A stretch of DNA of 64,000 nt from Oceaniferula flava (GTDB lineage Bacteria; Verrucomicrobiota; Verrucomicrobiia; Verrucomicrobiales; Akkermansiaceae): NCBI RefSeq assembly GCF_016811075.1, contig NZ_JAFBGL010000001.1, forward strand, positions 1-64,000, in the 5' to 3' direction. The notes below the pieces were generated by a model that made no database searches, was not told where the DNA came from, and worked only from the letters and a program-made list of their open reading frames with translations. Shown here piece by piece: positions 4,417-22,358 of this stretch (the first letter of the stretch is position 1; every line of letters begins with the position of its first letter). A program made the translations under genes and the position numbers.

Positions 4417-7400
4417 ATGAAACTACCTCAGTTTTTCATCGATCGACCGATTTTTGCTTCGGTGATCTCCATCGTCATCATGCTGGTAGGCGGCATTGCC
4501 TACCTGACCTTACCGGTGGCGCAGTATCCAGAAATTGCTCCACCTACTATTCAGGTGACAGCCAGCTATCCGGGTGCCAGCCCTGATGTTTTGGCCGAGA
4601 CGGTTTCCACTCCGTTAGAGCAGGAAATCAATGGGGTGGAGAAAATGATCTACATGACCTCCCAGAGCACCAGTAATGGAGCGGTGACGATCACCGTGTC
4701 TTTTGAACAAGGCACGGATGTGGATGAAGCTCAGGTGCTGGTGCAGAACCGGGTGTCGCGCGCCTTGCCCAAGCTGCCCGAGTTAGTGCAGCGCACCGGT
4801 GTGGTGACGGAAAAGGCCAGTCCCGATCTTCTGTTAGTAGCGCATTTGATTGCCGATGATGGTGAGTTGAGCCAGCTTTTCGTAGGCAACTATGCCTACC
4901 TGCGAGTCAGAGATGAACTGCTCCGCTTGAACGGGGTGGGCAATGTCACCGTCTTCGGTGCCAGCGAATACAGTATGCGGGTGTGGCTCGATCCACAAAA
5001 ACTAGCAGCCCGGAACCTCACCTCCGGCGATGTTCTTGCGGCTTTGAGCGAGCAGAATGTGCAGGTGGCCGCAGGCACGATCGGTAAGCAGCCGATGGAT
5101 CAATCGATGGCGTTTGAGATGAGTGTGCTGGCCAAGGGCCGACTCAAAGACGCTGAGGAATTTGAACAAATCATTGTGAAAACCGGCGACTCCGGACAGA
5201 TCGTGCACCTCGGTGAAGTGGCTCGCATCGAGCTGGGTTCGCAGGACTACTCCCGTGAAAGTTATCTCGATGGAAAACCGGCAATCGGTATCGGTGTGAC
5301 CCAGAAACCTGGGTCGAATGCGTTAGAAACAGCTCAGGAGGTGGAGGACACCTTGGAGCGTCTGTCTCAAGATTTCCCCGTGGGGCTCAGCCACACCATC
5401 GTTTATAACCCAACCGTTTTCGTCGAGGAATCGATCAACTCCGTTTACCACACCCTGATCGAAGCGGTCTGTCTGGTGGTCATTGTGATTTTGGTATTCC
5501 TGCAGAACTGGCGAGCCTCGTTGATTCCGCTGTTAGCCATTCCGGTTTCCTTGATCGGTGCCCTTGGAGTGATGGCGGCGATGGATTTCTCGCTGAATAA
5601 CCTGACCTTGTTTGGACTCGTGCTGGCGATCGGTATTGTGGTCGATGACGCCATTGTCGTGGTTGAGGGCGTTGAGCGCCATTTGGAAGAAGGCTTGAGC
5701 CCGAAAGATGCCACCAGCTTGGCGATGAAAGAGGTCAGTGGTGCCTTGGTGTCGATGGCGCTGGTCCTCTGTGCCGTGTTTGTTCCCACCGCATTCATCA
5801 CAGGTATTTCCGGACAGTTCTATCAGCAATTTGCCATCACCATCGCGGTGGCCACCGTGATCTCCGCTTTTGTTTCACTGACTCTGAGTCCGGCGATGTG
5901 TGCCATTCTACTGCGTTCGCCAGATGCGAAAAAAGATTGGTTTCAGAAAGGTGCCGATCTGATTTTCGGTTGGTTCTTCCGCCTGTTTAACCGCTTCTTC
6001 AATAAGCTCTCGAATGTTTATGGCGGTATTGTGAAACGAGTGACGCGCTTCGCCGTGTTGATGCTGCTGCTTTACTTCGGCTTGGTAGGTCTCGGTGGTT
6101 TCACCTTCACCAAGGTGCCCAGCGGATTCATTCCCACTCAGGATCAAGGGTATTTAATTTTATCGATCCAGCTGCCACCTGCCGCCTCATTGAGTCGGAC
6201 CCGTGACGTGGTGAAGGAAGCCGGTGAAATCGCTCGTGGCATCGATGGTGTCGGCCACACTGTGGAAATTGCCGGTTTCTCCGGTGCGACCCGCTCGATC
6301 GCGTCCAATGCAGCAGCCATCTTTGTGATCCTTGACCCCTTCGATGAACGCACCGCATCAGGGCGGAACTCGGCCGTGATCTCGGCGGACCTGAAGAAGG
6401 CACTGGCTCCCGTGACGGAGTCGAACAACGTGGTCATCGCGCCGCCACCAGTGCGTGGTATCGGCACCGGCGGAGGATTCAAGCTCATGCTGCAAAGCCA
6501 GGCCAATGGCAGTTATGACGAGCTGGAAAAGGTGACCCAGGAGTTCTTAATGAAGGTCAACAAAGACCCAAGCACGGCCTACGCCTTTACCACCTTCAGT
6601 GCCCAGACGCCGCAGTATTATGCTGACATCGATCGTGATAAGGCGAAGATGATGAATGTTCCGATGTCCAATGTTTTTGAGACCTTGCAAGTGGCCTTGG
6701 GCTCATCCTACGTGAATGATTTTAACCAGTTTGGTCGCTCCTACCGAGTGATCGCACAGGCGGAATCGCAATACCGCGATCAGGAAAGTGACGTCCGCCT
6801 GCTGAGCACACGGAACAGCGATGGCAAGATCGTCCCGCTCGGGTCCTTGGTGAAAATGAACCGGGTGACCGGCCCGGACCGTGTGGTTCGTCACAACCTT
6901 TACCCCACAGCAGAAATCATCGGCATCACCGCGCCCGGCGTGAGCTCCGGCGATAGTTTGGATGCGGTGGAGAAATTGGCTGAACAGCTACCACCCGGAT
7001 ATACTTTTGCCTGGATTGACATCGCCTATCAGGAGCGAGCTGCGGGGAACACAGCCGCGCTGGTATTTGCTTTGGCGGTGGTCTTTGTTTTCCTTCTGTT
7101 AGCGGCCCAGTATGAAAGTTGGGGACTGCCGATGGCGGTGATCCTGATTGTTCCGATGTGTCTGTTCAGTGCCATTGCCGGAGTCATGCTGCGCGAAATG
7201 GATAACAACATCCTGACCCAGATCGGCTTTGTGGTTCTGATTGGCCTCGCTGCCAAGAATGCGATTCTGATTGTCGAGTTTGCCCGCCAGCAGGAGGACG
7301 ATGGGAAAGATCGCTTTGAAGCAGCCATCGAAGCCTGTCGACTCCGTTTGCGCCCGATCCTGATGACCTCCTTCGCCTTTATTCTAGGCGTGGTGCCACT

Positions 7401-10436: not shown

Positions 10437-11192
10437 CTAGCTTCTCCGGCGTCTCCATGTCAGACCGAACGCAGCCAAGCCTAGCAGGGTCAGCGAGGAG
10501 GGTTCAGGAACGGCTTCGCCATTGATGGTGAATGTGTCCACATCGACAAAGTAACCGTTCGTGCCATCAAGTTTTGCTGCTGACAGGCTGAACTCATACG
10601 TAGTGTTGGCACTGAGGGTTGTCCCTGTTAGTGACAAGGAGCTGTCTGGCGATCCTCCGGAGGTTGGTCCATTGGTGCTGATGCTGTCGCTGACAGGTGA
10701 TCCGAGGATGGATGATCCACCGGTGGAAATATCGAGTGTGGCGGTGAACAAATTGGCAGCAACCCCGGTGTTACTTTGCAATGTACGGCCACTGTTGGTG
10801 CGGTAGCTGTCGAAACTGAAATCCTCGAGGCTGAGATCGGACGATCCGGTGGTGAGTGACCAAACAATGGTCCATGTGTTGTTCGCTCCGTTGGTTCCGA
10901 CATTGATGTTGGGACTCAATGCCTTCGAGATCGAGTCGGTGGTGCCTCCGTCGGCATTGGTGATGCGGTAATTGGAGGTGCTGGTGAAGAGGTTGTCGCT
11001 GGTAAAGCTCGAGTCAACGATGTTCCAGCTCGACTGAGCAACCATTGAGCCGGTATGTCCGTTGACGCTCGTGCCCGAGGCGTCACTGATGGTGGTAAAA
11101 TCGTTGCTCGCGAGCACAGCGGCGTACGAGGCGGTGACGCCGGCTAACTGCAGGGCGACAGCGGCAAAGGTTCTTTTGTGTGTTGAGTTCAT
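10437..11192 (-). CDS. PEP-CTERM sorting domain protein, exported
   Basis: An extracellular or surface protein of unknown role. The start at 11192 (MNSTHKRTFAAVAL) gives a signal peptide of about 25 residues; an upstream in-frame start would add seven. The mature part is Ser/Thr/Gly-rich beta-sandwich sequence with very few charged residues. The last 25 residues form the canonical PEP-CTERM tail: VPEPSSLTLLGLAAFG, hydrophobic stretch, then RRRRS, recognised by an exosortase system. Many such proteins occur in verrucomicrobial genomes and are linked to exopolysaccharide or biofilm; that link is general knowledge. No exosortase gene is in this window. Confidence 0.85.
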   Translation of the reverse strand: MNSTHKRTFAAVALQLAGVTASYAAVLASNDFTTISDASGTSVNGHTGSMVAQSSWNIVDSSFTSDNLFTSTSNYRITNADGGTTDSISKALSPNINVGTNGANNTWTIVWSLTTGSSDLSLEDFSFDSYRTNSGRTLQSNTGVAANLFTATLDISTGGSSILGSPVSDSISTNGPTSGGSPDSSLSLTGTTLSANTTYEFSLSAAKLDGTNGYFVDVDTFTINGEAVPEPSSLTLLGLAAFGLTWRRRRS

Positions 11193-11263
11193 GGAACCAT
11201 AATCAATCACCAAAGTGGCGTTGCGCGCGAGAGTGGGATTTCGTTATGGGGTGTGTATTTTCC

Positions 11264-12106
11264 TTACCACACCCACGATTGGTCATACCAGAAGCGACGA
11301 AGTTCCTCGAGGCTGCCATTGAAACCATTGCGTTCGATCGGGCGGTCGAGGTTGCCGAAATAGCGTGGCGTCTGCCATGATCCACCACGGTAGTTGTAGG
11401 GTTGGGATTTGCCATTTTTCCACCACACACCGCCGTATTGCCACATGCACCAGGTGTTCCAGATGCCGCTACTGTTAGCCAGCTGCTGCGGCGTTTTTAG
11501 CTTGGGGTGACTGCGGGAATAGAGCGCCAGCCAGTAGGGACACTGACGGAGAATCGCTTTTTGTCGGCCTGTGGCATTCTGCAGTGTGTTGCGGATGGCG
11601 TCTCCATTTTCCAGGTAGACCACCGGGTATTTGCCGGTCAGTTGTTGGATCCGGGTGACAAAGCTGACAATTTGTTCGGCCTGGCAGTTGGTATCGATGT
11701 CGGCGACCATGAGAATACGGTCGGCCCGAATGCCGCGGGTGGCTTTGATTTCTCGCAGGCGATTGACAAAGCGCTCCGCATGATAGTTCGGCGAAGAACC
11801 CGGGAGCAGGTAATAGTAGGATCCTAACAATAGACCTTGGCGATCTGCTCCGGCGAGGAAATCCGCACATTTGGTATCGAGCACCGGCCCCTTGGCGCAG
11901 CGGGCAATAAGGCCGTGGGCACCATTGGCTCTCAGTGCTGATTGATTCGCAGGCGAATAGGAGCGCCCCGGACGCTGTTTTTCTTTGGGGTCATAATGCG
12001 AGACATTGATGACCTTGGGGGACTCTTGGTAGGAAACCTTGCCATACTGAGAGCATGATGCAGTCAGCAGCAGAGTAGCGAGTAAGAGGAGGTGCGTGGG
12101 TTTCAT
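11264..12106 (-). CDS. Lipoprotein with GH25-like (lysozyme-type) domain
   Basis: Lipoprotein signal with lipobox LTASC (Cys about 18). Residues about 33-230 resemble glycoside hydrolase family 25: KVINVSHYDP matches the first strand with its Asp, LLGSYYYLLPG the third, LMVADIDTN the catalytic strand, KYPVVYLENGDA and the final WCMWQYGG the rest of the barrel. In typical GH25 enzymes the catalytic strand ends Asp-x-Glu; here it reads DID, so the acid is Asp rather than Glu. It may therefore be an atypical muramidase or a non-catalytic relative. It is followed by the PEP-CTERM gene on the same strand (71 bp). Confidence 0.7.
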   Translation of the reverse strand: MKPTHLLLLATLLLTASCSQYGKVSYQESPKVINVSHYDPKEKQRPGRSYSPANQSALRANGAHGLIARCAKGPVLDTKCADFLAGADRQGLLLGSYYYLLPGSSPNYHAERFVNRLREIKATRGIRADRILMVADIDTNCQAEQIVSFVTRIQQLTGKYPVVYLENGDAIRNTLQNATGRQKAILRQCPYWLALYSRSHPKLKTPQQLANSSGIWNTWCMWQYGGVWWKNGKSQPYNYRGGSWQTPRYFGNLDRPIERNGFNGSLEELRRFWYDQSWVW

Positions 12107-12179: not shown

Positions 12180-13916
12180 TTACTCGGCGGCATTCTTGGG
12201 GATCACGCCTTTGGCCATGCGGTCGCCTAGCTTGAAGTAGCCCATGAGCTCGCCGCTTTCCTTAGTGATTGCCCAGACGGATCCGGGGCGGCCTTTGATT
12301 TCCACTTCGCTCTCAGCCTTCACCAGAGCTTTTTCAGTGAGTTCCATCTCGGCACTGACTTCGTGAATCTTGGCGTTCACTGGCGATTGGTTGACGAAGA
12401 CCAAGCGGACGTTGCTGCCGTCGGCATTGGGCTTGAGGATCTTTGTTGGATCGGATGTTTTTTTCCACCTCATCGAGGGTAGATCTTTGACCTTCACCTT
12501 GGGCTTCGGAGCGAAGGTTTTTGGCACAAATGCCTTCAGCTGCTCGAGCTTCGCCTGGTGTTCCGGGTGCTTGGCCAGGTTGGTCCACTCGTGTGGATCT
12601 TGGTCGATGTTGTAGAGCTCTTCGCCGCCGTCACGGTAGCTGATGTAGCGCCATCCTTTGCCACTGACCCCCAAGCTGGCTGCGTCTTCGAGGAAGGTGG
12701 GGACCGGGTCGCTGCTGGTGTTGGCATCGAGAAGTTGGGGCACGATGCTGGGGGCGTCACAGGCATCGGGCGTGGGTAGGCCACAGAGCTCGGTGAGGGT
12801 GGGGTAGAGACTGAGCAGGCTGACCGGCTGTTCACAGACGGTTCCGGGGGTGGTGCCTTTGGGCAGTTTGGACGATAGCTTTTCCGGAACCTTTACCATC
12901 AGGGGAACGCGGGTGCAGGCGCGCCACGCGGTGTATTTCTGCCAGTGCTGTTTTTCTCCGAGGTGCCAGCCGTGGTCCGACCACAGCACGACGATGGTGT
13001 TGTTTTTGTTCGGTCCTTCTTCCAGGGCATCGAGCACACGGCCTAACATAGTGTCGGCAAAGTAAATCGATGCCAGGTAACCTTGCACCGCTTGCTTCCA
13101 TTGTTTTTCCTTTTGAATGTGGTCGAAGTAACGGTTGTGTGCGAAGCGTTTTCCCAAAGCAGGCACATCATCGAGGTCGTCTTTGCGGTAGCCGGGGGGG
13201 AGCTGGATGGAATCTAACGGGAACTTTTCAAAATACTTCGCCGGAACAAACCATGGCTCGTGAGGGCGATAGATGCCACAGGCGAGGAAGAACGGTTTGT
13301 CATGTTCTTTCTTGAGATAGTTGCCCACAAATTCGGTCACGCTGTAGTCGCCGCCGAAATCCTTGTCGGAGGTTTCCAGCGGGCCCCAGTCGGTTTCCAC
13401 ATACTGCCATGGACCTCCGACCGGCAGGGAAACCGGGCGTTTTTCCGGGTAGAGTGTTTTTGGCAAGGGCATTTCCGTTTCCTTCGGAGGGAAGTAATCA
13501 TTCCACGAGCGGGCATCGGTGACGTAGTGCAGCATTTTACCTGATCCGGTCGACCAATACCCGTGGTCGGTAAAGTGCTTGGGGATGAGGGTGGCATCAG
13601 GAAGCACATCGCGCATCACCTGCGCATTGCTGTAAATTCCGGAGCGGTGTGGGGACTGGCCGGTGAAGATGGCGCTGCGTGAAGCATTGCATGCGGGGGC
13701 GACGCAGTGGGCATTGGTGAAAAGCACGCCGCTGGCAGCGAGGCGGTCCATGTTCGGAGTGATCGTCTGGGGGTGGCCACCCAAGCAGCCAATCCAATCG
13801 TTCAAGTCATCAAGCGCAATGAACAGGACATTCGGCTTGGTTTCCTCGGCCTGGGCACCGAGCACACCGCTGGCCGCCAACATCAGGATCAATAGCTTCC
13901 GAAATTTTATTTTCAT
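12180..13916 (-). CDS. Secreted sulfatase, iduronate-2-sulfatase-like
   Basis: A second S1 sulfatase, distinct from the first. The start at 13916 (MKIKFRKLL) gives a clean signal peptide ending AQA; an upstream in-frame start would put 18 residues before it. Metal-site stretch VLFIALDDLNDWIGCLGG and the formylglycine signature CNASRSAIFTG (Cys about 76) are in place. The spacing and the stretches GSGKMLHY, RPHEPW and LWSDHGWHLGEK are those of the iduronate-2-sulfatase/choline-sulfatase-like subgroup. Length is 578 aa, with about 80 C-terminal residues beyond the sulfatase fold. Together with the other sulfatase it suggests use of a sulfated polysaccharide, but no glycoside hydrolases or transporters for one are adjacent. 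Confidence 0.9.
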   Translation of the reverse strand: MKIKFRKLLILMLAASGVLGAQAEETKPNVLFIALDDLNDWIGCLGGHPQTITPNMDRLAASGVLFTNAHCVAPACNASRSAIFTGQSPHRSGIYSNAQVMRDVLPDATLIPKHFTDHGYWSTGSGKMLHYVTDARSWNDYFPPKETEMPLPKTLYPEKRPVSLPVGGPWQYVETDWGPLETSDKDFGGDYSVTEFVGNYLKKEHDKPFFLACGIYRPHEPWFVPAKYFEKFPLDSIQLPPGYRKDDLDDVPALGKRFAHNRYFDHIQKEKQWKQAVQGYLASIYFADTMLGRVLDALEEGPNKNNTIVVLWSDHGWHLGEKQHWQKYTAWRACTRVPLMVKVPEKLSSKLPKGTTPGTVCEQPVSLLSLYPTLTELCGLPTPDACDAPSIVPQLLDANTSSDPVPTFLEDAASLGVSGKGWRYISYRDGGEELYNIDQDPHEWTNLAKHPEHQAKLEQLKAFVPKTFAPKPKVKVKDLPSMRWKKTSDPTKILKPNADGSNVRLVFVNQSPVNAKIHEVSAEMELTEKALVKAESEVEIKGRPGSVWAITKESGELMGYFKLGDRMAKGVIPKNAAE

Positions 13917-14027
13917 AGCTGCAGAGAACCGAAAATAGGGAACCGGAGAAAGCCAATTCTCGTCGGACAAGGGGTCAAAAAACCATCAGGACGAGCTGTT
14001 GCCGCTGCGTATTGAGCGGTGGGTGAC

Positions 14028-15311
14028 TTAGCTTTGATGGGGCTCGGTGTCACCTTCGGGCGGCGTGGACCGCGAGGCAAGTTCCAGTGCCAGCGCCCCC
14101 AACGCCAGCAGCCCTGCGATGCAAGCCAGCACCCATTTCGGTTCGAACCCGGTTCCCCAGAGCGCGACCAGCAGCCAGGGAGACAGAGCTTTCGAGAACA
14201 CACTCGGCATGGCTAAGACTCCATTGAGTTCGGCATATCGGTGGGTGCCAAACAGCTCCGCCGGAGCGGTGCCTTTGACGATGGTCATCACTCCGTTGCC
14301 CAGGCCAAACAGTGCGGCAAACAAGCAGAGCACCGGGAGGCTGGGAGGCAGGGTGATCAGAATGGTGAGCGAGAGCAGCAGCAGCGTCATCGCCGCGCGA
14401 CCAATCTGCAGGGATGAAAAATGGTGACCTTTTGCCGCGAGTAAAAGTCGACCGAGCACCTGCATCGGCCCAATGATCACAATGGCTTTCAAGATCATCG
14501 CGGGGGCGACCTCCATGGCCGTGAGCAGGGGGATGATCAGAAAGGTCAGGCCGGAAAAGGCACCCGTGTAGGCGGTGAACCAGAGAGCGAGGTTGAGGAA
14601 GCGACGATCGGAGATTTCGCTGCGCAGGGTGCTCCACCGCAGCCGTAATTGCTCAGTCACAGGGGCTGGTCGGGGAGCTCTGGGAATAGCAAGTCGCTTC
14701 GGGATGCTGAGCCAGTGCAGGGGCGCGCCGACAATGATCAGCAGGGCTCCGCAGGCCTGCAAGGCTCCGCGCCAGCCCAAGTGCGACTCTGCCAAATAGA
14801 CCAGCGGAATGAATGCGGTGCTGGCCAATCCGGCGAGCAGGGTGACCAACGTGATGCCCTGGCGGTAGTGCGAGCGGAATGTCTGCGTGATGACTGCAAA
14901 GGCAGGATCGTAAAGCAAGCATCCCATCGCGATGCCCAAACCCACCCAGCTGATGAGATAGGGAAGCGGACTGTGAACCGCCGACATCATCAGCAGCGAT
15001 AAGCCTCCTAACAGCGACCCTGCTGCCATCACCGCGCGCCCGCCCCGGTTTTGAATCCACGCCCCAACAGGCAGCGCGCTCAGCCCCCAGACGAGTAGTC
15101 CGAGGGAGAGGCCCGCGTTGAGAAATGATCGCGACCAAGTGGTCTCGGTAGCGATCGATTCCAGCATCACAGTGAAGGTGTAATAAAGCACACCCCACGA
15201 GAGCAGCTGCCCAACCGCCAGGCACCACGCCAGCCCCCAAGGTTTGGGATCGGCGTTGTCAGAGGTCCACGGGGCGGTGGGGCTGACCTGTTGAGCCTCG
15301 GCCGGTTTCAT
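14028..15311 (-). CDS. Major facilitator superfamily transporter
   Basis: Inner-membrane secondary transporter of 427 aa with 12 predicted helices, e.g. WGLAWCLAVGQLLSWGVLYYTF (first) and the C-terminal WVLACIAGLLALGALALELA. The loop between helices 2 and 3 has a degenerate MFS motif (GAWIQNRGGR). Its start codon overlaps the stop of the flavoprotein gene by an ATGA, so the two are translationally coupled. Placement after an ECF sigma factor and a Cys-tailed flavoprotein suggests export of the compound the system handles, possibly a metal or metalloid species. Substrate is inference only. Confidence 0.85.
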   Translation of the reverse strand: MKPAEAQQVSPTAPWTSDNADPKPWGLAWCLAVGQLLSWGVLYYTFTVMLESIATETTWSRSFLNAGLSLGLLVWGLSALPVGAWIQNRGGRAVMAAGSLLGGLSLLMMSAVHSPLPYLISWVGLGIAMGCLLYDPAFAVITQTFRSHYRQGITLVTLLAGLASTAFIPLVYLAESHLGWRGALQACGALLIIVGAPLHWLSIPKRLAIPRAPRPAPVTEQLRLRWSTLRSEISDRRFLNLALWFTAYTGAFSGLTFLIIPLLTAMEVAPAMILKAIVIIGPMQVLGRLLLAAKGHHFSSLQIGRAAMTLLLLSLTILITLPPSLPVLCLFAALFGLGNGVMTIVKGTAPAELFGTHRYAELNGVLAMPSVFSKALSPWLLVALWGTGFEPKWVLACIAGLLALGALALELASRSTPPEGDTEPHQS

Positions 15312-16669
15312 CGGCAGCAGGCGGAGGTCTCACCTTCGTCAGCGGCCGGCTCGGCGGAGCAGCAGGAGGTGGGGGCTGGCTCGGCGCTACAGCTGGGCGC
15401 AGCGTCCTGGCTGCAGACTCCGGTTTCTGGTAGTTCGAGCTCCACGTTCGCGGCGGCTTCGTGGTCGCCAGCAATCTCAGCCACCACGGAGCGCACTTGC
15501 TCATGGCCGGTGGCCAGGAGGAAAGTGGGTGCCCGACCGTAACTTTTCATGCCCACGATATAGAAACCGGATTCAGGATGGGTGAGTTCGCGTGCGCCGT
15601 GTGGTGGCACGCTGCCGCAGCTGTGTTCGTTGGGATCAATCAGGGGGGCGAGTGCACGCACGGATTCGAGCGCGGGATCGATCTCGACGCGGATCTCGCG
15701 CAGCATTGCGAGGTTGGGACGGAAGCCGGTTTTGACAATGGCGCGATCCACGGTGAACGATCGCTCACCGTCCGGTCCGCTGCCGGAAACTTGGATTTGC
15801 TGATCGCCCTGAGCCGCCAGCTGCTGAATCTCGAAGGGGGTGATTAATTCGACGTCGCCACGGTCCACGGCAGCCTTCGCCCGGAGACCCATCTCGCCAC
15901 GCGCCGGTAGGGCGTCGTTCGCTCCTCCGCCGAAGACCTGATCGAGGCAGGCTTTGCGCATCACCCAGATGATTTGGGTCGCGGGAGCTTCTTTCTTCAC
16001 TTCTAACAAGTCAAGCACGCCGGTGAACGACGAGTGGCCACTGCCAACAACGAGCACGCTGCGGTTTTGATATTTTTCTCTGGCGCAGCCACGGATGTCC
16101 GGGATGCCGTAATCGATGAGGTCACGCACCTGCTCTTCACCAATCGGGTGCAGTCCGTTCGAGCCCATTGGATTCGGTTGGTTCCAGGTGCCGCTGGCAT
16201 CGATCACCGACTTGAATGCTCGTTCTTCCAGCTCACCGTTCTGCTCAATCCGGAGTGTGAAGGCTCGGTCGGCGCGGCCACGGGTGCGCACCTTGTCGAG
16301 ACCGCGGCGTGAAATTGCCAGAACCTTGCTGTCAAAGCGAAGGCACTTGGCCATGGCGGGGACTTGCGCCAGTGGCGTTAGGTAGTCCGCGATCAGTTCT
16401 CCGCCAGTGGGGAGGTGTTCAGGATCGGGCTCTGACCAATCGCTCTGCTGCAGCAAGCGTCGAGCGGCGGAGTCGATGTTGAATTTCCAAGGCGAAAACA
16501 TCCGCACATGGGCCCACTGGCTCACCGAGTGGGCAATGGATGCCCCCGCTTCAAAAACAACGACGGATTCTCCACGTTCTAACAAATGAGCGGCGGCGGC
16601 TAAGCCGATGGGGCCGGCTCCGATGACGGCGACCGGCAAGGGTTCTGATAGTTCTGTGTTATTGTTCAT
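15308..16669 (-). CDS. FAD/NAD(P)-dependent oxidoreductase with Cys-rich C-terminal tail
   Basis: Flavoprotein of the two-dinucleotide-binding type (CzcO/FMO-like). FAD site: AVIGAGPIGLAAAAHLLERG at about residues 14-33. NAD(P) site: VLVVGSGHSSFTGVLDLL near residue 205. Further conserved stretches are DASGTWNQPNP and the late KTGFRPNL. The last 40 residues carry eight cysteines, including CCSAEP and a terminal ACCR, separated by Ala/Glu/Ser-rich linkers, which is not part of the catalytic fold. Such a tail could bind a soft metal or metalloid or hand off a thiol-bound substrate. It lies between the sigma factor (91 bp upstream) and the MFS gene (4 bp overlap). Confidence 0.8.
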   Translation of the reverse strand: MNNNTELSEPLPVAVIGAGPIGLAAAAHLLERGESVVVFEAGASIAHSVSQWAHVRMFSPWKFNIDSAARRLLQQSDWSEPDPEHLPTGGELIADYLTPLAQVPAMAKCLRFDSKVLAISRRGLDKVRTRGRADRAFTLRIEQNGELEERAFKSVIDASGTWNQPNPMGSNGLHPIGEEQVRDLIDYGIPDIRGCAREKYQNRSVLVVGSGHSSFTGVLDLLEVKKEAPATQIIWVMRKACLDQVFGGGANDALPARGEMGLRAKAAVDRGDVELITPFEIQQLAAQGDQQIQVSGSGPDGERSFTVDRAIVKTGFRPNLAMLREIRVEIDPALESVRALAPLIDPNEHSCGSVPPHGARELTHPESGFYIVGMKSYGRAPTFLLATGHEQVRSVVAEIAGDHEAAANVELELPETGVCSQDAAPSCSAEPAPTSCCSAEPAADEGETSACCR

Positions 16670-16760
16670 GCCTTAAAGAGACGTGAATTTCCAAAAAAGG
16701 ACGCAGAAAAAAATCGAGAAGTCCTCAAGCGGCAGCTCCACCGAGCGTGAAACAAGCCTG

Positions 16761-17366
16761 TTAGGCGCAATAGCCGGGGCGAGGCTCCACCTCCACTACG
16801 CCGCCATAGCGATCGGTCTCTAGCAGACAGCAGCGCTCGACTGCATCCCGCACCGCCGCCCGCGCCCGCTGCACCCGCGACTTGGCTCCCGACACCGAGA
16901 TGCCGGCATTCTTGGCGAGCTCCACCTGGGAGTGACCTTGGCAGTCGGTAAAGCACAGCGCATCGCGGTAGATCGGCGGTAAGCCCTCGACCACCTCGCG
17001 TAGAAATGCGCTCAGGATCTCGGGGAAATAATTTTTGCCATCGGCGTGAACCAGAGAGGCCAAGGAGTCGTCCGCCGCGCCGTCATCCAGAAAGGTTGCG
17101 GATTTCTGAGCCCCCCGAAAGTAATCGGCGATGGTATTGCGGGCGATCTGATAGAGCCAGGGGCGTCGACGTTGCGGGTCCTTCAGGTGATTGATTTTCT
17201 CGAAGGCCTTGAGGAGGATTTCCTGGGTCAAATCCTCCGCCACATGGGGGTCGCGCACCCGACTTAGCACAAAGCGCAGCAGGGATGAACGGACTTCGTC
17301 ACTGGCCCAGAGCTCATCCTTCGGCGATGAGCTGGGTGAGGATGGCGTAGGGCTCGCAGGCATCAT
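16761..17366 (-). CDS. ECF sigma factor, SigZ-like, with C-terminal cysteines
   Basis: Sigma-70 family extracytoplasmic-function factor. Region 2 is about residues 25-90 (FVLSRVRDPHVAEDLTQEIL, then RPWLYQIARNTIADYFR) and region 4 about 120-178 (LREVVEGLPPIYRDALCF, then VELAKNAGISVSGAKSRVQRAR). Beyond region 4 comes a short tail with adjacent cysteines 179-180 (ERCCLLETDRYGG) and a further Cys at 200. I recall such a CC-x-E-x-DR-x-G tail from SigZ-type factors. Cysteines also occur at 138 and 142. No anti-sigma gene is adjacent, so the tail itself may sense redox or metal. The start could be either of two consecutive ATGs at 17366. Confidence 0.8.
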   Translation of the reverse strand: MMPASPTPSSPSSSPKDELWASDEVRSSLLRFVLSRVRDPHVAEDLTQEILLKAFEKINHLKDPQRRRPWLYQIARNTIADYFRGAQKSATFLDDGAADDSLASLVHADGKNYFPEILSAFLREVVEGLPPIYRDALCFTDCQGHSQVELAKNAGISVSGAKSRVQRARAAVRDAVERCCLLETDRYGGVVEVEPRPGYCA

Positions 17367-17380
17367 GACCTCGCCAATTT

Positions 17381-17395
17381 ATGACGATGCGTCAT
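17381..17395. promoter_or_regulatory. Palindrome upstream of the ECF sigma gene
   Basis: ATGACG-ATG-CGTCAT is a perfect 6-bp inverted repeat 15 bp before the sigma factor start, where a regulator or the sigma promoter could act. Seen by eye only. Confidence 0.3.
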
Positions 17396-17454
17396 CCTGT
17401 CCAGCGAAACTGAGTGTCTAACGCCCCCCTGATGATGGGGTGGTTGGATTTTTG

Positions 17455-18827: not shown

Positions 18828-21800
18828 TTATCGGGTGCGGTGGTTCCGGAGGTGCAGGAACAAGGTGGTGAGTGATAGGCAGAACACAATGCAGGCGCAG
18901 ATCACGATGCGACAGGCTTGCGTGCTTCGGGTGGTAAATCCAAACCAATATTTCCACTCGGCCAAGAAGATACTGCGTTTCGTCGCTTGGCGGTAATCCA
19001 CCCGATCAATCTCCGACTTGCTGACTAACAGGTCTGTGCGAGTGTTGACGAAGAAGTCGCGGACCGGTCGGGTCTCGATGCTTTCGTCGTCCGGATAAGG
19101 AGGTATTTCCAGCAGCTCGTCCATGGTTTTACGTCGACCGGCGTGGGCGAGTTTCCATGCGAGACTTTTGGCCTCGGTGGCATCCGTGGCCTCGGCGGCC
19201 ATGAGTCTGCGGAGGGATTCTTTGAGAATGTCGAGTCGCTCGCTCTGCTCCGCGGTCAGCTTCTGGCTGAGATCTCCGGCCAGACGTTTTTCGCCGACAG
19301 CTTTCAAGGGATCGATCGCCGCTTGCACCTTGCGGCGTTTGTTTTCGAAGGGGTTTTCCGTGGCCTGGCTGACGGTCATGCCCTCGTAGGCATAGCGCAG
19401 CGGCATGAAGCGTGCTGGAAAGGGTTCGGCTCCTGCAGCCCGACCTTTATCGGCCCCTTGGAAAAGACCTCGGTTCATTTCGTCAAAGGAAACCAGCGCG
19501 CCTGCGAGTAGTAGTTGGGGAACTAACAGCAGGGGGACGGCGCTCAGGGCGGCACGTTCGGTGGTGACCAAGGAGGATACCACAAGCGCCATCGCCGTGC
19601 CGCACAATGCGGTCAATGTCATCCACATCCAGTGGGTGGTGAACATGCCGTAGATATCTAACATTTCATGCCCGATCCACGTGTAAATCGCGCACTGCAG
19701 CGCAGCCACAATCGCCAAAGCAAGGAATTTGGCACCGACGTAAAGCACCGTGCCCGTGCGGCAGTTCCGCTCCCGCCGGAGCACGGGGAAATCTCGCAGG
19801 ATCTCGGTGGCGCTGTTGGTCAGGCCGAGGAACATGCCGATGGTGACGGTGAGGAAAATGTAGACTGGCAGATGCAGTCCGCTGTGGAAGGAGTAGGCCC
19901 CTTCCGGTGATGCCCTGAGGGTCACCCCGATGAGGAGAGCGAGCAATGGAGCTTCTAACAAGATACTGTAAAGAGTGCCGCGATTGCGGAACTTCGAGAT
20001 CATCGTGCGGTGGAAATGGGTGCGGAACAGGCGTTCCCATTCGAAAATACGCTGTCGGCTCGAGCGCGTGGGCACTGCCATGTGGTCCTCGCTCAGAGGC
20101 ACGCTGCCCATTTGGCTTTGGCTGGGAATATCGCCACGTGCCACTTCATTGACCAGCTGGCTGCCTTCGAAACGTTCCTGCCAGAATGTTGGTGGGAAAC
20201 GGCGGACGCCCCCTCCTTCACGACCCGCATGTCCGTAGAGTGGCGTTTCCAGAATATCGAAGACGAAGTCCGCGCCGCCCACTTTCTCCGCCTTGAGAGT
20301 TTTGGCGGTGAGGATGTGCAGCTCCTTGCTGGACTCGCGGAAGTAGTGAGCCATACCCTGAGGGGTGCCGAAAAAGGCAACGCGACCGCCTTTGTCGAGC
20401 AGCAGCACCTTGTCGAAAAGCCTCAGCACCCGCGCACCGGGGCGGTGCAAGGAGGCGATCACAATGTTGTCGCGCGAAAGAGTGTGCAAGGTTTCCGCGA
20501 CGTGTTCGGAATCCTTGGACGAGAGGCCGGAGATGGGTTCGTCAAAGAGGAAGATCTCAGCCGGACTGCTGAGGTCCAGGCCGAGGTTGAGACGACCCCG
20601 TTCGCCGCCACTGATAGTTTTGTCGCCGGGCGACCCCACTTTCCTGCGTGCCAGTGGCTGCAGTGCCAGTTCGGCGAGAATGGAGTCCACCCGCTTGGCA
20701 TGCTCGGCGTGACCAAGGTGCGGACGACGAATCATCGAGGCGTGATTGAGGTGCTCGCGAACCGTGAGTTGGGGATTCAGAGCCTCCTCCTGAGGCATGC
20801 TGGCGATGAATGGGGCGAGCCGTTTGCGGTGCTCGTAGAGCGACACCCCGTTGAGCCGGATGTGGCCGCGGTTGGGCTTGAGGTGACCGGCCAAGGCGGC
20901 CAAGAGCGTGCTCTTGCCACTGCCGCTGGGCCCCATGATACAGAGCATTTCACCCCGCTTGACCGAGAACTCGACATTATCGAGCACTGTGACAGGGCCG
21001 TATTGATGGTTGAGGCTCTCCACGCTGAGGTCGCGGATCACGGTGCGCTCCTCGTCGAGCAGGCTTTCGCTGAAGCGACAGCGCACCGCCTGGTTCGGGC
21101 TGAGGCGGATGAGCGATCCGTCCACCAGCCGGGCCTCTGATCTGATGGGCTGTCCGTTGACCATGACCACGCGTTCGGCATCGATGATCTTCAGATGTCC
21201 TTCGGCGGTGTTCGGGTTGAACTTAATCTTCAGCACCATGCGGCGTGCCAGGCCGGGGGAGAGGAGGACATCGCCGCGCTTGATGGCGGAGGGGTCATTG
21301 GAGACGAGACATTCCTGCCTTCCGGCTTCCATCCGAAAGCGGTTGCCAGTTTCCATCGCTTGTTTGCGCAGAGATTCCAGGCTGGCCTCTGTGCCGTTGT
21401 CCAGGAGGATGTGATCCTGAATCGAGAGGAGATAGGTTTTCCCGGGGATCATCGCCTCGCCGGAGCTCAGACGCATGTCGGTCTCCACCAGCGCCTCCAC
21501 TTTGACATTCAGGCCGAAATCGAGTCTCACCGTGCTCTGCCTCGAGCGGATCCGCTCCGCCGTTAGTTGGTCGTCGGTCTCGTTAATATAAAGGGTGCGA
21601 CGTTGGCCAGTGCGGGCGGCATTGAGGAAAAAGGAAATGTCTTCGGCGACGATGGTCCACTCGGGGAGGCCGATGCTCTGGTGCGGGCGCAGTCGCATGC
21701 ACTGGCCGCTGGCGAGTGAGCTGCCACTGATCCACAGCGGTTCTTGCCCGGTGTTGCGGATCAGGATGAGGTCCTTGGAGCGATAGGCGCAGAATGAGAA

Positions 21801-22358
21801 ATCGCGCTGGTCGGCTGGCAGGCTGACATCTTTTTCCTCATCCGAACCGAAGCTGACTTTATCAAAGGGTAAGGGGGTGACCGGTGGCTTGCCTGCCATC
21901 TCGTCCATGATCGCGGTGCCTATCTCCGCGGCATTCAGGTTGGTCATGACCTGGCTGAAGGCTTTTTTTCCACGGAACTCCGACCCGGAGGCAACGACCA
22001 GGAGGTGCAACTGCAGTCCGAGCGAGACGCGGTCGTCGGTATCCAGCTCGTTGCGCAGGGACTTGGCGACTTTTTCGATCGGTTCCGGGGATGCTAGCGC
22101 CCGGTGCAGGCGGCGTGCCAGCCAGGCGTGGTCGGCCTCAGGAAAGGCATGGCGCAAAAGATCCAGAGCCACCTCGGCCTCGGCGCGGTCGACCCGATCG
22201 TCCAGGGCGGCAAAGGAGGCAAAAACATCCACCAGACCGCCGGTATGACGCATTCCACCGGGGGCGGTGGGGGAGAATTTACGCAGGAATGGAATGTTTT
22301 CCATCCAGCTGATCATTCGGTGTTTTTTGCGCGGAGCATGGTCGTCTGGTTCTGCCAC
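18828..22358 (-). CDS. ABCG-type transporter fused to TerB-like and FHA-like N-terminal domains
   Basis: A 1176-aa multidomain membrane protein. Residues about 38-155 are all-helical and look like a TerB domain (VDVFASFAALDDRVDRAEAEVALDLLRHAF). About 185-440 contains beta-rich parts, the last (about 380-432, NGQPIRSEARLVDGSLIRLSP) resembling an FHA domain. The ABC ATPase follows: Walker A IMGPSGSGKST at about 475-485, signature ISGGERGRLNLGL, Walker B EIFLFDEPISGLSSKD, switch His in ASLHRPG. After about residue 790 an ABC-2/ABCG permease with six or so helices ends the protein, with a long soluble insert. The order ATPase then permease is that of eukaryotic ABCG and mycobacterial Rv1747, which also carries FHA domains. 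Substrate unknown. Confidence 0.8.
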   Translation of the reverse strand: MAEPDDHAPRKKHRMISWMENIPFLRKFSPTAPGGMRHTGGLVDVFASFAALDDRVDRAEAEVALDLLRHAFPEADHAWLARRLHRALASPEPIEKVAKSLRNELDTDDRVSLGLQLHLLVVASGSEFRGKKAFSQVMTNLNAAEIGTAIMDEMAGKPPVTPLPFDKVSFGSDEEKDVSLPADQRDFSFCAYRSKDLILIRNTGQEPLWISGSSLASGQCMRLRPHQSIGLPEWTIVAEDISFFLNAARTGQRRTLYINETDDQLTAERIRSRQSTVRLDFGLNVKVEALVETDMRLSSGEAMIPGKTYLLSIQDHILLDNGTEASLESLRKQAMETGNRFRMEAGRQECLVSNDPSAIKRGDVLLSPGLARRMVLKIKFNPNTAEGHLKIIDAERVVMVNGQPIRSEARLVDGSLIRLSPNQAVRCRFSESLLDEERTVIRDLSVESLNHQYGPVTVLDNVEFSVKRGEMLCIMGPSGSGKSTLLAALAGHLKPNRGHIRLNGVSLYEHRKRLAPFIASMPQEEALNPQLTVREHLNHASMIRRPHLGHAEHAKRVDSILAELALQPLARRKVGSPGDKTISGGERGRLNLGLDLSSPAEIFLFDEPISGLSSKDSEHVAETLHTLSRDNIVIASLHRPGARVLRLFDKVLLLDKGGRVAFFGTPQGMAHYFRESSKELHILTAKTLKAEKVGGADFVFDILETPLYGHAGREGGGVRRFPPTFWQERFEGSQLVNEVARGDIPSQSQMGSVPLSEDHMAVPTRSSRQRIFEWERLFRTHFHRTMISKFRNRGTLYSILLEAPLLALLIGVTLRASPEGAYSFHSGLHLPVYIFLTVTIGMFLGLTNSATEILRDFPVLRRERNCRTGTVLYVGAKFLALAIVAALQCAIYTWIGHEMLDIYGMFTTHWMWMTLTALCGTAMALVVSSLVTTERAALSAVPLLLVPQLLLAGALVSFDEMNRGLFQGADKGRAAGAEPFPARFMPLRYAYEGMTVSQATENPFENKRRKVQAAIDPLKAVGEKRLAGDLSQKLTAEQSERLDILKESLRRLMAAEATDATEAKSLAWKLAHAGRRKTMDELLEIPPYPDDESIETRPVRDFFVNTRTDLLVSKSEIDRVDYRQATKRSIFLAEWKYWFGFTTRSTQACRIVICACIVFCLSLTTLFLHLRNHRTR

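Follow-up and report, generated by a model that had tools for sequence, protein, structure and literature searches.

We report that a locus in Oceaniferula flava (NZ_JAFBGL010000001.1, positions 1 to 64,000; this whole stretch of 64,000 nucleotides is called the window throughout) is probably an arsenic-detoxification operon under a SigZ-type extracytoplasmic function (ECF) sigma factor, which would act as a one-component switch for trivalent arsenicals. The locus consists of genes for the sigma factor, a Cys-tailed flavoprotein and an exporter of the major facilitator superfamily (MFS) (Table 1), and the 91-bp gap between the first two genes holds a conserved promoter-like element, TGCGTCC-N15-CGTCT. 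This putative promoter is a new finding of the present analysis, and the first-pass annotation of the locus overlooked it. Judged from sequence, the link between sigma factor, element and arsenic genes is strong, while the sigma factor's own cysteine tail is, by analogy with CorE, a plausible sensor.

The element emerged from an alignment of the sigma-flavoprotein gaps of the window and three related loci (L001, L002 and L021; comparison loci carry L numbers), in which TGCGTCC and CGTCT are kept in otherwise diverged DNA. The same pair with the same spacer of 15 occurs at SigZ-type loci of further lineages, and copies of the element now accompany SigZ-type sigma genes from Verrucomicrobiota, a Calditrichia metagenome-assembled genome (MAG), Actinomycetota and Bacillota. 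We scanned 41 sigma loci, comprising the window, 5 flavoprotein loci, 10 loci from Verrucomicrobiota, 20 from Bacillota, 2 further ones from Actinomycetota and 3 weak matches to TIGR02959 that lack the CC..D..G tail. Within 2 kb of the sigma gene, 22 of these partly non-independent loci (L146 and L148 are close relatives, as are L142, L144 and L151) carry the exact element, 30 carry it with at most one mismatch and 36 with at most two; other spacers between 10 and 21 were found in at most 2 loci each. First-order Markov resampling yielded a mean of 0.075 loci with an exact copy and 1.0 loci with at most one mismatch. The exact copy at L008 lies beyond the 2-kb limit and the copy at L103 has a spacer of 16, so both were counted as misses. 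Since a two-mismatch match also turned up at L159, one of the weak TIGR02959 matches, we regard two mismatches as noise. The O. flava genome (3.95 Mb) contains a single exact copy, the one in the operon.

We further examined the flavoprotein relatives found by scanning genome contigs (best 80 of 142 kept). A sigma gene accompanies the flavoprotein gene in five of the 80 loci (L001, L002, L008, L021 and L073), and the exact N15 element is present in 5/5 loci with the sigma gene and in 0/75 without it (888,602 bases), one of the latter having the pair with a spacer of 17. Could the element instead be the site at which another regulator, for instance an ArsR-like one, represses or activates, with the sigma gene a mere passenger? 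Its halves, GCGTC...CGTC, do resemble each other in direct-repeat fashion. Yet the element is missing from all 75 sigma-less flavoprotein loci, often with an ArsR neighbour, it accompanies SigZ-type sigma genes of four phyla whose target genes differ, and its spacing is fixed at 15, all of which makes this explanation very improbable. Indeed, the usual regulator beside sigma-less flavoprotein genes is ArsR/SmtB, a helix-turn-helix (HTH) repressor and not a sigma factor: among the open reading frames (ORFs) just upstream of the flavoprotein at these loci (84 candidates, of which 71 from 63 loci were scanned, some being overlapping frames), 32 matched ArsR/SmtB, 7 ArsC and 6 a PadR model. ArsR/SmtB repressors sense trivalent arsenic by means of cysteines.

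The assignment to arsenic comes from the surrounding genes. In a survey of 721 neighbouring ORFs (chosen greedily and clustered, with one representative tested per cluster), a mixed ArsC-matching cluster occurred in 47 of the 80 flavoprotein loci, an ArsK-matching cluster in 34 (216.9 bits, under cutoff) and an ArsO-matching cluster in 11 (under cutoff); the Acr3 (21/80) and ArsJ (13/80) clusters scored over their cutoffs. These neighbourhoods place the flavoprotein family in ars operons; next to the window flavoprotein gene the sole such neighbour is the ArsK-like MFS gene. As a control, we set the SigZ-type loci of 13 Verrucomicrobiota genomes (13 of the 288 searched had such a match) against 30 retrieved loci of other ECF factors from the same genomes. 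With a gene panel that drew in part on SigZ loci inspected beforehand (ArsM, ArsI, flavoprotein, DUF2703), an ars gene lay within about 1.5 kb at 13/13 SigZ-type loci versus 0/30 of the others (one-sided Fisher test, 3e-11). The exact element was present at 8/13 versus 0/30 loci (11 versus 1 with one mismatch), and the CC..E.D..G tail in 12/13 versus 0/30. In Verrucomicrobiota the flavoprotein was found in 3 of 276 genomes, each time with the sigma gene beside it. SigZ of B. subtilis and of Bacteroides ihuae match in the control set.

The first-pass annotation had proposed handling of a soft metal, metalloid or thiol-bound compound. Soft-metalloid handling is supported, and the families of the neighbours and of the element-linked genes narrow it to arsenic, whose genes do co-occur at related loci. 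It is improbable, in our judgement, that the unit serves another soft metal or a thiol-bound organic compound and that the arsenic-type neighbours elsewhere reflect shared chemistry only. Such a role would fit the O. flava genome, in which the stretch read around the operon has no further arsenic gene and an ArsR-type regulator and Acr3 are encoded on a different contig, and the ArsI/CadI family is named for cadmium as well; against it, the ArsM, Acr3, ArsC, ArsI and ArsJ families recur at related loci. A copper or mercury operon was considered and rejected, as the named neighbour clusters are arsenic families except for a MerR-type regulator (7/80 loci) and an ABC ATPase.

The genes linked to the element vary across phyla. 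The order sigma-flavoprotein-MFS, which the first-pass annotation had thought worth seeking, was found in Roseibacillus persicicus (L001; KCTC 12988 is its cultured type strain), Verrucomicrobiota JB023 (L021) and a Verrucomicrobiales MAG (L002). In the Calditrichia MAG (L008) the order is flavoprotein, MFS, sigma; Rhodococcus xishaensis (L073) has sigma, flavoprotein and a divergent MFS gene, and in L156, from the Rhodococcus phylum, the sigma gene is divergent from the flavoprotein gene. The element precedes the flavoprotein gene in these six loci and the window, seven in all, and precedes ArsM (over the NF008823 cutoff) in nine (L094, L097, L098, L099, L100, L101, L102, L103 and L140). At L095 a DUF6428 gene follows it, and at L096 an ArsI/CadI gene (over cutoff) follows a copy with two mismatches. 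In Bacillota a DUF2703-type gene, assigned by Pfam for seven proteins and by tblastn for the others, comes first after the element in most loci. DUF2703 or ArsM lies at most 1.5 kb from the sigma gene in 18/20 Bacillota loci (not L145 or L154), the DUF2703 probes being derived from two of those 20 loci and the match at L153 possibly being the sigma ORF's own tail. According to PMC6514093, the DUF2703-arsO operon of Rhodococcus aetherivorans BCP1 is described as As(V)-induced.

Several further observations concern these families. In L135-L152 (Bacillota) the gene immediately following the element repeatedly encodes a DUF2703 protein with a Cys-rich end. Tiny Cys-rich ORFs directly follow exact copies of the element on Rhodococcus opacus plasmid pROB01 (58 aa; L171, 6676-6852, minus strand) and a Nonomuraea plasmid (34 aa; L176, about 5712-5816, plus strand); they are possible arsenic-binding peptides. 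DUF6428 proteins are encoded near arsenic genes at L095 (7736-8191, minus strand; Verrucomicrobiota) and on a Hymenobacter plasmid (L172, 11473-11931, minus strand), where ArsC, Acr3, DUF6428 and ArsR lie 2-6 kb from the SigZ relative.

Turning to the sigma factor itself, it shows the SigZ layout (TIGR02959 / PRK09637) of sigma-2 and sigma-4 regions followed by a CC near the end, and the TIGR02959 alignment extends into the tail (residues 24-200 on profile positions 9-178 of 181). The CC...C tail after region 4 that the first-pass annotation described is confirmed as CC-x19-C (C179, C180 and C200), and the only other cysteines, C138 and C142, both lie within region 4. In an alignment of 27 SigZ-type sigma factors, C180 never varies and C179 is at least 90% conserved; at least three cysteines from the CC (or RC) onward are found in 24/27, and one further sequence is an RC form with four in total. 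The tails of both proteins are thus conserved in orthologues, across the 27 sigma factors and 80 flavoprotein relatives, a point on which the first-pass annotation had staked its proposal. An AlphaFold2 model (mean predicted local distance difference test score, pLDDT, 85.2; predicted TM score, pTM, 0.47; pLDDT in blocks across 171-201 of 85, 84 and 60) ends helix 158-179 at the CC and continues into a short beta hairpin (180-184 / 190-195), which, as predicted, would bring C200 back toward C179-C180. A fold search with the model returned general ECF matches only and no match for the tail. As a separate observation, a SigZ-like ORF at L153 (6259-6978, minus strand) ends in NSGCCNNSGCC, resembling a DUF2703 tail and not the usual SigZ tail, by fusion or frameshift.

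A different account concerns how the signal reaches the sigma factor. The sigma factor might drive the arsenic operon through the element while sensing is done by an unlinked anti-sigma factor or a redox or zinc switch, the tail being a zinc or disulfide site. Anti-sigma partners are common among ECF factors, and zinc- and thiol-based switches are known in ECF/anti-sigma pairs, according to PMC8999054. The first-pass annotation's statement that there is no anti-sigma partner holds for the adjoining genes, which encode an ATPase and the flavoprotein, the rest of the genome having not been searched for one. That no anti-sigma gene adjoins, that the tail cysteines are kept across phyla while the neighbourhood changes, and that the targets are arsenic genes and not oxidative-stress genes all speak against this account, which we consider unlikely. 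Direct sensing by the tail is plausible given the lack of an adjacent anti-sigma gene, the conserved cysteines and the precedent of CorE. As described in PMC8999054, CorE and CorE2 of Myxococcus xanthus (ECF44/ECF238) carry a Cys-rich C-terminal extension proposed to be a direct metal sensor, and ECF287 and ECF288 are further groups with Cys-rich extensions. The window sigma factor likewise has a short C-terminal Cys region, with three cysteines only, and no adjacent anti-sigma gene; in contrast to CorE/CorE2, it lacks the CXC in the linker (there is no Cys between sigma-2 and sigma-4), and the genes nearby are of arsenic type, not of Cu, Cd or Zn type. We propose that a SigZ-like factor here applies the logic of CorE to arsenic.

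A number of results weigh against this interpretation. The window sigma factor reaches 150.3 bits against NF007215 (cutoff 212) and 148.1 bits against TIGR02959 (cutoff 168.65), and the MFS protein 166.7 bits against ArsK NF033733, its best family match (cutoff 400). As these scores, and those of the flavoprotein given below, fall under curated cutoffs, we speak of 'like' proteins and not of members by cutoff. The sigma factors of L002 and L096 have the CC pair only, missing the distal Cys, and that of L103 is without one Cys of the pair. With at most one mismatch, the element was not found in L145, L153, L154 and L155, nor at six of seven plasmid SigZ-relative loci scanned (Priestia, Vibrio cortegadensis, Vibrio sp. 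THAF191d, Photobacterium, Hymenobacter and Arenibacter, all of which keep the CC); the plasmid sample was eight stretches among 1484 plasmid records matching the SigZ query. Matches with two mismatches also occur at 9/30 control ECF loci, and the partial origin of the ars panel in SigZ loci counts here too. Finally, the O. flava genome has 12 copies with 0-1 mismatches versus 22 for a reversed control, so its one-mismatch copies are noise; such copies elsewhere in that genome were accordingly rejected as further targets.

The flavoprotein tail contains six cysteines (C419, 427, 436, 437, 451 and 452) and not the eight originally counted. C419 and C351 (in an HSCG motif) are invariant in an alignment of 28 flavoproteins, and tail cysteines are present in 80/80 fetched relatives, 2 to 11 in each. 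The protein scores 32.2 bits against ArsO NF040505 (cutoff 425) and 40.4 bits against YpdA/Bdr TIGR04018 (cutoff 339.9); it shares their NAD(P)H-FAD fold and differs by these low scores and the extra Cys tail. Its model (pLDDT 87.5, pTM 0.86) is nearest to YpdA/Bdr 7a76 (TM 0.64 by query), followed by N- and flavin-monooxygenases, and a PDB sequence search gave 0 matches at 1e-3. The adjoining MFS protein resembles ArsK, a family of MFS arsenite/methylarsenite exporters. Together they recall the ArsV-ArsW pair of Paracoccus sp. SY, reportedly the work of Chen et al. 2021. As cited in PMC10080717, PMC11719878 and PMC9144182, that pair consists of a flavin enzyme oxidising methylarsenite and an exporter; the window pair is likewise a flavin enzyme plus exporter, likened by description only.

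In the O. flava genome, Acr3 is encoded on a different contig, preceded by an ArsR-type HTH gene (HTH_20/HTH_5) whose product ends in a Cys tail, and ArsM was not found. With Acr3 elsewhere and no ArsM, the role of the sigma-driven pair may lie beyond simple As(III) efflux, for instance in dealing with methylarsenite acquired from neighbours. ArsM and ArsI, like the ArsV-type oxidase, are part of organoarsenical chemistry. The separate ArsR-type regulator and Acr3 occupy L210 (5710-7443, plus strand), and the regulator ends in CCSGEPCLDTPCDC.

The following scheme is inferred as regards recognition of the element by the sigma factor, sensing by the tail, the ligand, what the enzyme does and what is exported. 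The sigma factor, with no adjacent anti-sigma gene, would stay inactive as long as neither As(III) nor methylarsenite is bound to the C179-C180 and C200 cluster; the arsenical-bound form would direct RNA polymerase to TGCGTCC-N15-CGTCT, and the flavoprotein-MFS pair would be transcribed from a nearly leaderless start, the ATG lying only 9 nt past the element. The flavoprotein, if it works as ArsV and ArsW suggest, would draw on NAD(P)H, FAD and its cysteines to convert a trivalent (organo)arsenical that reacts with thiols into a pentavalent form of lower toxicity, which the ArsK-like MFS protein would export. As(III) suits three thiols and methylarsenite two. In this connection, L096 (7011-8082, minus strand) has the CC-only SigZ-type sigma gene beside an ArsI-type gene, possibly a two-thiol methylarsenite sensor.

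A broader proposal, to which we give an even chance, is that SigZ-type ECF factors of several phyla are one-component activating sensors of trivalent arsenicals. Arsenic bound by their own Cys tail would let them fire TGCGTCC-N15-CGTCT promoters in front of genes for Cys-tailed arsenic enzymes, namely the flavoprotein, ArsM, ArsI, DUF2703 and DUF6428 proteins and tiny Cys peptides, and they would stand in for the ArsR repressor. Accounts of arsenic control usually centre on repression by ArsR. With an activating sigma factor the logic would differ, giving a second way to switch on arsenic defence and a useful arsenic biosensor of low background; through the element, DUF2703 and DUF6428, both uncharacterised families, are also linked to arsenic. 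A concrete promoter sequence, a set of genes and a possible ligand now make the role of SigZ-type factors testable in a few reporter experiments. The function of B. subtilis SigZ is given as 'Not yet determined' in PMC7522486; an arsenic context and the element are not known for that protein, which lay outside our comparison. No earlier proposal of a link between SigZ or ECF sigma factors and arsenic was apparent from literature listings that pair these topics, and PMC8103513 contains none of the terms arsen, SigZ, metalloid or cysteine.

Table 1 Features of the sigma-flavoprotein-MFS locus in the window
Feature	Position	Strand	Basis or remark
SigZ-like ECF sigma factor, 201 aa	16761..17366	-	Pfam Sigma70_r2 and Sigma70_r4_2
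Sigma Cys tail, C179-C180 ... C200	16764..16832	-	Alignment of 27; AlphaFold2 model
-35-like half of the element, TGCGTCC	16699..16705	-	Gap alignment and locus scans
-10-like half of the element, CGTCT	16679..16683	-	15 nt past the first half; 9 nt before the flavoprotein ATG
FAD/NAD(P)-dependent oxidoreductase (flavoprotein), 453 aa	15308..16669	-	Pfam Pyr_redox_3; ars-operon neighbours
Flavoprotein tail (C419 onward; six Cys; disorder predicted at 422-450)	15311..15415	-	Alignment; model
MFS exporter, ArsK-like, 427 aa	14028..15311	-	Pfam MFS_1; NF033733

All three genes of the unit named by the first-pass annotation, which gave no strand, are present on the minus strand. The data suggest, however, that the three do not form one unit: the regulator gene would stand apart from the flavoprotein-MFS pair, which would have its own sigma-dependent transcript. 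The flavoprotein stop and the MFS start overlap as ATGA, so translational coupling of the two genes, as that annotation also held, is likely. No copy of the element was found upstream of the window sigma gene, and in a MAFFT alignment of sigma upstream regions the sole common block was one between L001 and L021. Directly 5' of the sigma start codon lies an inverted repeat, ATGACG-CAT-CGTCAT (window 17367-17400), which was not seen upstream in L001, L002 and L021. The gene 5' of the sigma gene encodes a RarA/MgsA-type ATPase (Pfam MgsA_C), and 3' of the MFS gene is a sulfatase gene (12180-13970, minus strand). Also on the minus strand of the window are genes for a PEP-CTERM protein (10437-11213), a glycosyl hydrolase family 25 protein (11264-12106) and an ABC transporter of 1176 aa that combines ATPase and membrane parts in a single chain (18828-22358).

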